This document shows positions 27,205 to 29,741 of a stretch of DNA of 64,000 bases, piece after piece. Numbering within the stretch: position 1 is the first letter of the stretch; each line of letters opens with the position of its first letter. The DNA is from Bacteroidetes bacterium HGW-Bacteroidetes-5 (GTDB lineage: Bacteria > Bacteroidota > Bacteroidia > Bacteroidales > UBA932). The stretch covers positions 620,001 through 684,000 of the forward strand of contig PHDC01000001.1 in the NCBI GenBank assembly GCA_002842515.1, given 5' to 3'. The notes under the pieces are model-generated. The model saw only the letters and a list, made by a program, of their open reading frames with translations, had not been told where the DNA came from and made no database searches. A program made the position numbers and the translations under genes.

Positions 27205-28152
27205 ATGAATCTCTCAATTGTAATTTCTGTATATAACGAAGAGGAGTCTCTGCGCGAACTCATACCCTGGATAAAAGAGGCACTTTCCGGAGAGAGTATG
27301 GAGTATGAGATTATTCTTATTGATGACGGCAGTACAGATTCTTCCTGGAGTATAATTGAAGAGCTTTCAAAAGAGTATCCTATAAAAGGGATCTCTTTCC
27401 GGAGAAATTACGGAAAATCTGCCGCACTCTATTGCGGATTTGAACTCGCACAAGGAGATATTGTTGTGACAATGGATGCAGATCTGCAGGATAGTCCCGA
27501 GGAGATTCCGGGGCTGGTTGCTATGATTAAAGCTGAGAATCTTGACATTGTTTCAGGCTGGAAAAAGAAACGCTACGATGGCTTCTTCTCAAAAAACCTT
27601 CCATCGCGAATCTACAACTCTGCGGCAAGAAAAGTTACCAAAATCAAGCTGCACGATATGAACTGCGGTCTCAAGGCATACAAGAGAGAGGTAGTTAAGA
27701 ATATAGAGGTTTACGGAGAGATGCATCGCTACATACCATATCTTTCTAAAAACGCAGGTTTTACAAAAATTGGGGAGAAAGTTGTAAAGCACCAACCGAG
27801 AAAATTCGGTAAGAGTAAATTTGGCAAGAGCCGGTTTATTAACGGATTTCTGGACCTTCTCACTCTTTGGTTTCTATCCCGTTTCGGAAAGAAGCCAATG
27901 CACTTCTTCGGGCTTGTCGGTTCACTCACTTTTTTAATAGGATCACTCACCTCACTTTATCTAATTATTAACAAAATTGTAACCCAGTCTAAAGGGTTAC
28001 CTTTTAGAGCCGTAACAGACCAACCGCTGTTTTATATCTCCCTAGTTGCGTTAATTATTGGTATGCAGCTGTTTCTATCCGGGTTTTTGGCTGAATTAAT
28101 ATCCCGAAACGGCAGTGAGAGAAATCATTATAAAATAAAAAAATCGATATAA
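27205..28152 (+). CDS. Family 2 glycosyltransferase, DPM1/GtrB-like
   Basis: The 315-residue protein has a GT2 (GT-A fold) domain (about 1-220) with IDDGSTDSSW, the DxD-type MDADLQDSPEEI and a SGWKKKRYDG acceptor loop, followed by two C-terminal membrane helices (about 230-262 and 274-300). This layout matches bacterial polyprenyl-phosphate sugar transferases such as GtrB/DPM1-like enzymes, which load one sugar from a nucleotide donor onto undecaprenyl phosphate at the inner membrane. The sugar is not predictable. It is coupled to the DUF4199 gene and 48 nt upstream of the actin-like gene. Confidence 0.93.
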   Translation: MNLSIVISVYNEEESLRELIPWIKEALSGESMEYEIILIDDGSTDSSWSIIEELSKEYPIKGISFRRNYGKSAALYCGFELAQGDIVVTMDADLQDSPEEIPGLVAMIKAENLDIVSGWKKKRYDGFFSKNLPSRIYNSAARKVTKIKLHDMNCGLKAYKREVVKNIEVYGEMHRYIPYLSKNAGFTKIGEKVVKHQPRKFGKSKFGKSRFINGFLDLLTLWFLSRFGKKPMHFFGLVGSLTFLIGSLTSLYLIINKIVTQSKGLPFRAVTDQPLFYISLVALIIGMQLFLSGFLAELISRNGSERNHYKIKKSI

Positions 28153-28200
28153 CTTTACATATCAATATTTTTTTTGTACTTTCACGGAAAATTTTTTACT

Positions 28201-29289
28201 ATGATAAAAACTTACTCTTTTCCAAGCGTATACGAGTCAACGCTAAGAGACTTTTCTACCAGTAATGATCCTATCCTTGGTTTTTCTAAATTAAAATTTG
28301 ATGGTGCGAATTATTTGGTTGGATTACAAGCTCTTAACGAAGGCGTTTCTCCTCACAAATCAATAAATGCATCACCAGAGGATGTAGATTATAAAATTAT
28401 TACTCAATCTGCACTTCTGCTTGCCAGTAATGCTCTAAAAGGTGAGTCAAAAAACGGCAAGGTTCCTAAAATGGTAGTAACAAGCGGATTCCCTTACGCT
28501 ACCTACCAATTTAATAAAGATAATGCCATCGAGTATTATAAAGAGGAGAAGATTATCACTTACTACAAAGCAGATGACAATGGCTCACTCAGTTCTGAGC
28601 AGAGAGTTGTTTCAGTAGCATCTGCAAATGTAATTCCTGAGCTTGTTGGTTGTGACATAGCTGTAAGAAAAGGTGACCAACCTGTTGATGGAAACTTCAT
28701 AATAATCAGTCTGGGTTACGGTACTTGCGAGGGAGCTGTAAGTACACCGGAAGGTCTAACTACCAGGTCTTTCTTTAGCACTCACGGTATAAGTTATCCC
28801 GTGAATGTATTCAGTCAGGAGATCAGTAAACACACCTATTTGAAACTAAGAACAGAACACCAGATAGATCATCTGTTCTCTAAAGGTTTTATGTTTGTAG
28901 AGAGAAAGAGAAAAGATTTTACTGAGGAGAAGAAACTTGCAATCAGTATGTACTATAACAATGTTATCTCTCCTACCATAAGGCGCTATATTACAGATGA
29001 AGACTTTGAAAACTGTCAAAAAATGATTCTTGTCGGTGGAGGTGCACTACACAAAGATCTTGTTGAGATGTTCAATGAGGAGTTTGGTGAAATTTGTAAT
29101 ATCTCCATTTTCAATGCTCCTGAGAAATGTGCCTCTATCGGATATGCACTCTACTCAAAAGCATCTGTTGAGAATAAAGAGGGAGATGGATTCTCCTACA
29201 CTCCGGACTCAGAGGAAAAAGTTGTGTATGTAGGGATAGATATCGGAAACGCCAATACCTGCGTCTCTGTGATATCAAACTCATACTAA
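28201..29289 (+). CDS. Actin-like ATPase (ParM/StbA-like), apparently circularly permuted
   Basis: The 362-residue protein starts at the ATG 28201 (a TTG nine codons earlier is less likely). The fold markers of actin-like ATPases are present but in unusual order: an N-terminal FPSV and a NYLVGLQAL strand, which normally follow phosphate-1; phosphate-2 at 166-180 (FIIISLGYGTCEGAV); the adenosine motif at 275-284 (MILVGGGALH); ASIGYALYS at 311-319; a polar linker; and, as the very last strand, VVYVGIDIGNANTCVSVI (341-358), a near-perfect phosphate-1 motif that normally opens the protein. Only 48 nt separate the ATG from the upstream stop, with no second phosphate-1 coding there. A filament-forming cytoskeletal or segregation role is inferred. 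It is convergent with a bactofilin gene. Confidence 0.85.
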   Translation: MIKTYSFPSVYESTLRDFSTSNDPILGFSKLKFDGANYLVGLQALNEGVSPHKSINASPEDVDYKIITQSALLLASNALKGESKNGKVPKMVVTSGFPYATYQFNKDNAIEYYKEEKIITYYKADDNGSLSSEQRVVSVASANVIPELVGCDIAVRKGDQPVDGNFIIISLGYGTCEGAVSTPEGLTTRSFFSTHGISYPVNVFSQEISKHTYLKLRTEHQIDHLFSKGFMFVERKRKDFTEEKKLAISMYYNNVISPTIRRYITDEDFENCQKMILVGGGALHKDLVEMFNEEFGEICNISIFNAPEKCASIGYALYSKASVENKEGDGFSYTPDSEEKVVYVGIDIGNANTCVSVISNSY

Positions 29290-29357: not shown

Positions 29358-29741
29358 CTATTGATTTTGCGATTTGAGGTTATCTTCAAACTCCTCTTCG
29401 GTTATCATCTTACAGGATCCGTTAAAAATGCCTCCCTCCTCAATAAATAGCTTTTGGCAGGCTATTTTACCCTTAATTGATCCACACTTTCTAAGCCCGA
29501 AAACCTCTTTTACCAATACTTTCCCGTCTACCTCCCCCCAAATATCGCAACTTTTTGCAATCACCTCACCAATTAAACGAGCTGACTCTCCTATTACAAG
29601 CTTCCCTATAGTTGTCAATTTACCCTCGAATAGGCCATCTATTCTGATATCTGATACTGAATTAATAACTCCGTGAAATTCGGTCCCGCCGGATATTCTG
29701 TTAACTTCGTTAACCTGGGTTGTATTTTCGTTCTTAGACAT
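29358..29741 (-). CDS. Bactofilin (polymer-forming cytoskeletal protein)
   Basis: The 127-residue protein has short polar tails around a core of short beta repeats with Gly turns (GVINSVSDIRIDGLFEGKLTT region to about 105), the right-handed beta-helix of bactofilins. Bactofilins assemble nucleotide-free filaments at the inner membrane and place wall enzymes or other partners. It lies 10 nt after lpdA on the same strand and tail to tail with the actin-like gene. Confidence 0.93.
   Translation of the reverse strand: MSKNENTTQVNEVNRISGGTEFHGVINSVSDIRIDGLFEGKLTTIGKLVIGESARLIGEVIAKSCDIWGEVDGKVLVKEVFGLRKCGSIKGKIACQKLFIEEGGIFNGSCKMITEEEFEDNLKSQNQ

Follow-up and report, generated by a model that had tools for sequence, protein, structure and literature searches.

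A family of Bacteroidota actin-like proteins with a C-terminal phosphate-1 hairpin, best read as natural circular permutants with recurrent bactofilin neighbours

The window, that is, the whole 64,000-nucleotide stretch of DNA analysed here, contains a gene for a 362-residue actin-like protein in which the phosphate-1 motif lies at the C-terminus. The protein is most plausibly a naturally circularly permuted member of the ParM/Alp/Ta0583 branch. In the arrangement that we propose, the first β hairpin (strands 1 and 2, with phosphate-1) would have been relocated behind the last helix by way of a linker, leaving canonical strand 3 as the new N-terminus, and the moved hairpin would fold back to occupy its usual place in subdomain IA and restore the ATP site, with ATP bound between the domains. 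The permuted actin would probably be a dynamic polymer or a switch, acting as the partner of a bactofilin scaffold. A bactofilin encoded directly downstream on the same strand would dock by a tail that ends in Trp or Phe. In certain lineages the pair may be joined by an M23 wall endopeptidase, and together they would position wall remodelling. Taken as a whole, from the permuted ParM/Alp/Ta0583-type chain with its refilled hairpin slot, through ATP binding, to a bactofilin-scaffold partner that positions wall remodelling, we consider this proposal probable.

To our knowledge, no natural circular permutation has been known for any actin-fold ATPase. If the reading is correct, the first hairpin of the actin fold need not begin the chain, and the fold would have acquired new termini, with a bearing on how it folds, makes filament contacts and evolves. 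Such proteins would be overlooked by searches that depend on an N-terminal phosphate-1. A survey of the literature on circular permutation in actin-like, ParM and ASKHA proteins, whose coverage mostly left out subscription papers, gave no permuted actin among the matches listed. In the accessible portions of PMC12667903, PMC1079889 and PMC10653835 the permutation wording concerns other matters, and neither "permut" nor "bactofilin" occurs in the papers on chromosomal ParM (PMC12270681) and on CorM (PMC12645912).

Gene and order of motifs

The open reading frame runs from an ATG to a TAA over 362 codons (Table 1). The phosphate-1 motif, VVYVGIDIGNANTCVSVI, occupies residues 341-358, and no such motif was found at the N-terminus, as a preliminary description of this DNA had claimed. 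The residue positions also bear out the order given there, with FPSV, NYLVG (residues 37-41), the phosphate-2-like segment FIIISLGYGTCEGAV (residues 166-180) and the adenosine motif all preceding phosphate-1. A further claim was that only 48 nt lie before the start codon and that no 5' part had been lost. This agrees with what was found: the upstream glycosyltransferase gene ends at 28152, leaving a gap of 48 nt to the ATG, and the reading frame upstream of the ATG is open for 16 codons only. A TTG at 28174 is a possible alternative start that would add nine residues; the phosphate-1 motif is absent both from the 16-codon upstream frame and from the TTG extension.

Table 1. Positions in the window of the actin-like gene, its motifs and the neighbouring bactofilin gene
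Feature	Position	Strand	Basis or remark
Actin-like protein read as circularly permuted, 362 aa	28201..29289	+	ORF, stop codon included
Strand at the N-terminus, residues 2-8, equated with canonical strand 3	28204..28224	+	absent once the C-terminal hairpin is left out of the prediction
FPSV segment, residues 7-10	28219..28230	+	ALP_N match begins at residue 3, profile position 17
P146-E147-L148	28636..28644	+	Glu invariant in 48/48
Phosphate-2 region, residues 166-180	28696..28740	+	Ser170 replaces Asp; Glu177 invariant
Adenosine motif ILVGGGALHK, residues 276-285 (VGGGA)	29026..29055	+	sequence, family alignment
Linker from last helix (307-328) to moved hairpin, residues about 328-340	29182..29220	+	low model confidence
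Putative relocated β1-β2 hairpin with phosphate-1, residues 341-359	29221..29277	+	motif, model, deletion model
Bactofilin (PF04519), convergent neighbour	29358..29741	-	PF04519 match, 82.5 bits

Conservation and distribution of the family

The aligned set comprises 48 intact members, the window protein included: 22 from set A2, 24 from a phylum-wide draw and two from a draw within one class. Excluded from it were L035, a near-duplicate of L034 that was also kept out of A2, the disrupted copy of genome G087 (L014/L015) and the G521 match of 49 residues. L007, which has a stop inside its match range, was kept out of set A1; the same contig is represented, with its frame intact, by L021. Loci L001-L013 mostly repeat contigs of L016-L027 or of the window.

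All 48 members have the same order of motifs, and none carries an N-terminal phosphate-1. The phosphate-1 residues G345, D347, G349, N350 and T353 are invariant, with 15-32 residues from G345 to the C-terminus, while at the other end of the chain the S9 column is preceded by 7-9 residues. Because these residues are invariant and the order is fixed in 48 members, a chance resemblance of the C-terminal motif is excluded. No second phosphate-1 was found in the upstream open frames, whether by eye (22 loci) or with a regular expression (25 loci, including the window), and the longest of these frames, in L054, lacks the motif. For the window gene and its 98% identical relative L016, the one pair of four for which dS was obtained, dN is 0.008 and dS 0.69, values that point to strong purifying selection on the gene. 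An artefact, whether frameshift, misassembly or loss of a 5' part, with a C-terminal motif present by chance, is refuted by the order common to 48 members from many genomes and by upstream frames devoid of the motif; with the purifying selection also against it, its probability is negligible.

The gene was found in 14 of the 99 genomes sampled as relatives, the window genome counted, and in 11 of 24 other genomes of the same genus; same-genus genomes of 97-99% completeness lack it. With so patchy a presence, the gene is not essential. In named genomes, a scan confirmed 22 loci, distributed among uncultured Bacteroidales and Sphingobacteriales, Odoribacter, Mucilaginibacter and Sphingobacterium. 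The phylum-wide draw gave 23 positive genomes of 395 (window included), spread over 12 of 171 genera. The draw restricted to the class of a single positive genome yielded eight positives among 391 genomes at E <= 1e-5; five of the eight had also turned up in the phylum-wide draw, and another was a 49-residue fragment. The match in G521 (L109, contig C524) covers 49 residues of the family's N-terminal region within a 55-codon open frame. On contig C131 of G087, a homologue with the same order is split over two frames and has an internal stop, which makes it likely a pseudogene or the product of a poor assembly.

Predicted fold and structural relatives

An AF2 model of the window protein, built with 22 sequences (pTM 0.87, mean pLDDT 82.7), has a predicted actin-type two-domain fold, an assignment in which Foldseek and VIA-align agree. 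The model places strands at residues 2-8, 341-348 and 352-359 and the last helix at 307-328, and the C-terminal hairpin has a mean pLDDT of 85-87. Foldseek returned Ta0583 (top, E 9.4e-15) and ParM as best matches. The superposition on ParM, which had been suggested as a check, was also clear: the best VIA-align row is Dh-cParM1 (PDB 8x1i), with a Z score of 27.0 over 313 residues and an rmsd of 2.9. Among the 50 VIA-align rows listed, residue 1 of the model falls on residue 17-29 of the entry in 44, and in the other six on residue 49 (four BiP entries) or 59 (CorM and BeeR). The first hairpin is therefore missing at the N-terminus of the window protein and corresponds to its C-terminal piece.

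The Pfam profile ALP_N (PF17989) places residues 3-150 on profile positions 17-148 (38.0 bits against a cut-off of 26.3), and the start of the protein lacks both positions 1-16 of the profile and roughly the first 16-28 residues of canonical relatives. MreB-like_C (PF21522) reached 20.9 bits, under its cut-off of 27.8, and NCBIfam gave nothing above a cut-off for the window protein. Since PDB sequence searches returned no significant relative, the fold assignment is based on Pfam and the predicted structure. A profile search of the PDB gave a weak match to a DnaK chain (E 0.18), in which positions 312-358 lie on chain residues 8-52; this alignment of the moved segment with the start of a chain is in line with permutation, and at most suggestive.

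Several known systems resemble the window protein in part. It is close to ParM/StbA, Alp and Dh-cParM1 by the ALP_N and VIA-align scores given above, but differs from ParM and Alp in having strands 1-2 and phosphate-1 at the C-terminus, in a replaced phosphate-2 Asp and in its recurrent bactofilin neighbour. The archaeal actin homologue Ta0583 (PDB 2fsj/2fsk), comparable also through the sub-cut-off PF21522 match, has its residue 19 aligned with residue 1 of the model, and thus carries the first hairpin at its N-terminus, unlike the window protein. Cyanobacterial CorM and BeeR share the actin fold (VIA-align Z 23.3 and 22.1); their first strands precede the residue, 59, on which the model begins. 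MreB has the same fold and a wall-linked role like the one we propose for the permuted actin; however, the MreB family profile PF06723 gives the window protein 12.6 bits, under a cut-off of 27, and the genome has a separate MreB match of 407.6 bits.

The ALP_N score above the curated cut-off and the ParM structures among the best matches would also fit a conventional ParM-type DNA segregation motor, permuted by happenstance. Against such a motor, the window gene lies on a 2.18 Mb contig, a search of 50,697 phage records gave no match with E <= 1, and plasmids yielded a single weak match, annotated ParM/StbA (E 0.01, 51% covered). Furthermore, the recurrent neighbour is a bactofilin, and no ParR-like gene was noticed on looking through the neighbours. 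We consider a segregation motor very unlikely. A phage or plasmid origin of the gene was rejected, given the absence of any phage match, the one weak plasmid match and a search of IMG/VR, where no gene for a relative was present in any of the 23 stretches that fitted a pattern.

De-permutation and deletion of the hairpin

The permutation was tested on the sequence by moving the tail to the front and rescoring ALP_N, with one shuffled tail per protein as control. The window protein then scored 48.3 bits instead of 38.0 (39.2 with the shuffled tail) and L043 scored 59.6 instead of 52.6 (shuffled, 53.6), and both de-permuted proteins match ALP_N from profile position 1. L029, from Mucilaginibacter, was not matched by ALP_N at E <= 0.01 in native, de-permuted or shuffled form; its MreB-like_C score went from 24.6 to 27.2 (shuffled, 24.3). 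ALP_N is above the curated cut-off in two of the three members scored (the window protein and L043, not L029), and tail matching equates the missing N-terminal segment with the extra C-terminal one in two of the three.

For a test at the level of the model, residues 1-326 were predicted with AF2 from the same 22 loci and compared with the full-length model. With the hairpin deleted, the pLDDT of residues 1-10 dropped from 84 to 31 and the strand at 2-8 disappeared; residues 41-60 went from 67 to 43-49, residues 91-100 from 92 to 84 and the pTM from 0.87 to 0.79, while residues 131-300 shifted by a few points at most. In the canonical actin fold strand 3 pairs with strand 2, and loss of the N-terminal strand is thus what a permutant predicts. 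Model confidence, DSSP and the deletion model support a predicted placement of the hairpin in the canonical strand 1-2 position. The circular permutation first suggested in the preliminary description is thereby strengthened, by an actin-like predicted fold and by an N-terminal strand that is lost once the C-terminal hairpin is deleted.

One of the two main rival explanations concerns where this hairpin goes. By strand exchange, it would be given to the next subunit, where its phosphate-1 would complete the neighbour's ATP site and couple polymerisation to active-site formation. The spacing between columns 319 and 345 is 24-30 residues in 14 of the 48 members, the linker of the window protein is modelled with low confidence, and a monomer prediction is compatible with such an exchange. 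However, just 11-12 residues separate these columns in the other 34 members, which favours folding back, and the hairpin is predicted with good confidence in a single chain. We regard strand exchange as unlikely and favour a permutant whose hairpin would return to its own subdomain IA.

The nucleotide site

In such a permutant, nucleotide (ATP) binding is likely. Measured against the ASKHA superfamily, the phosphate-1 residues G345, D347, G349 and T353 are kept in 48/48 members but are N-terminal in none, and the paired glycines of the adenosine motif (G279 and G280) are present throughout. E147 and E177 are likewise kept in every member, and we take E147 to correspond to the catalytic Glu in ParM. 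As for phosphate-2, the position first assigned to it stands, whereas its usual Asp does not: residue 170 is Ser in 43 members, Asn in three and Gly in two. In actin, Hsc70 and ParM this Asp belongs to the site of the catalytic metal and water, and since it is missing in all 48 members, hydrolysis may be weak or absent.

Linkage to bactofilin genes

Gene neighbourhoods were examined at 43 loci (the window, L016-L037 and L067-L086). Of these, 18 were re-examined, namely 14 without a called bactofilin together with L034-L036 and L079, and the bactofilins of L034, L035, L074, L078, L081 and L082, which ATG-only, non-overlapping ORF calling had missed, were recovered in this way. At 30 of the 43 loci a bactofilin is the immediate neighbour, and at three it lies one gene away; the stretch examined contains none in the remaining ten, among them L024, which ends with its contig. 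Twenty of the 30 adjacent bactofilins lie directly downstream on the same strand (in L079 at a distance of about 1 kb). The other ten are convergent and belong to one conserved Bacteroidales block, so that these ten loci amount to little more than one event. The bactofilin of the window is convergent, is not part of an operon and ends in Gln; it is the sole PF04519 match at E <= 0.001 in its genome, which is 92.85% complete.

The C-termini of the bactofilins were compared in 24 family-positive genomes searched for PF04519 (G229, positive in the phylum-wide draw, was excluded), with the three one-gene-away bactofilins and the window's own counted in neither group. Trp or Phe is the terminal residue in 14 of the 16 bactofilins directly downstream on the same strand (8/8 in the first set and 6/8 in the second, where the exceptions end WS and WI), and all 16 have W or F within the last two residues. 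By contrast, the terminal residue is Trp or Phe in one of 23 unlinked bactofilins of the same genomes (Fisher p 1.1e-7, a value that ignores relatedness). The nine downstream bactofilins from named Mucilaginibacter, Sphingobacterium and Sphingobacteriales all end WW. Among the convergent Bacteroidales bactofilins one of ten ends in Phe and the other nine have no aromatic end, and such an end was found in 0/3 of those one gene away and 0/3 of the upstream bactofilins of Sphingobacterium. The tail of the directly downstream bactofilin is possibly a docking peptide. Two 3.6 Mb genomes each have two permuted actins, each followed by its own Trp-ending bactofilin: G245 (L080 and L082, with bactofilins L131 and L125) and G293 (L055 and L062, with bactofilins L105 and L100).

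Beside the bactofilin, an M23 peptidase gene accompanies the permuted actin in several lineages. In the three Sphingobacterium loci an M23 peptidase gene is followed by a bactofilin, the permuted actin and another bactofilin (Pfam was applied to the L034 M23 and to the two L036 bactofilins). In L076, L083 and L084 the M23 gene comes first, followed by the permuted actin, a TPR protein and a bactofilin (Pfam was applied to the L076 and L083 M23 proteins and to the L076 TPR protein). A bactofilin and an M23 endopeptidase are described as cooperating in cell shape in Hyphomonas and in Rhodospirillum, as BacA-LmdC (PMC10945521). The present loci are similar in combining a bactofilin with an M23 peptidase gene; they differ in their actin, as the accessible part of that paper mentions MreB as sole actin and describes no actin-like member of the gene pair.

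These neighbourhoods bear on the other main rival, in which the protein would be a permuted regulatory ATPase, poor in hydrolysis and switch- or chaperone-like in the style of Hsp70 or FtsA, that forms no filaments and controls bactofilin assembly via its tail. Such a protein would suit the replacement of the phosphate-2 Asp in 48/48 members that keep phosphate-1, E147 and E177, as well as the aromatic-capped tails of the linked bactofilins, but filament-forming ParMs are among the closest folds to the permuted actin. We find this alternative conceivable though rather doubtful. Our preferred reading remains a permuted actin that is likely an ATP-dependent partner of the bactofilin scaffold in wall morphogenesis. 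More tentatively, Bacteroidota may possess an undescribed cytoskeletal module, in which a permuted actin with altered phosphate-2 is docked by an aromatic-capped tail to a dedicated bactofilin, as an ATP-driven element on a nucleotide-free scaffold that steers wall enzymes. The linkage points to a specific partner that can be tested, and named strains of Mucilaginibacter and Sphingobacterium are among those that carry the family.

Some further features of these loci were observed. The cluster of L076, L083 and L084 is followed by the apparent start of an ATP synthase operon (an atpB-like gene, identified by eye in L076). Three loci without a nearby bactofilin (L073, L075 and L086) adjoin a gene for an outer-membrane-type protein of one common cluster, OmpA-like by eye; L073 and L086 have it directly downstream, L075 directly upstream. 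The frame of the second bactofilin of L034 (6971-7570) opens before the actin stop, and its first ATG comes about 120 nt after that stop. In L036 the ATG-started second bactofilin matches PF04519 from position 26 only, and a non-ATG start or coupling is therefore possible for this gene.
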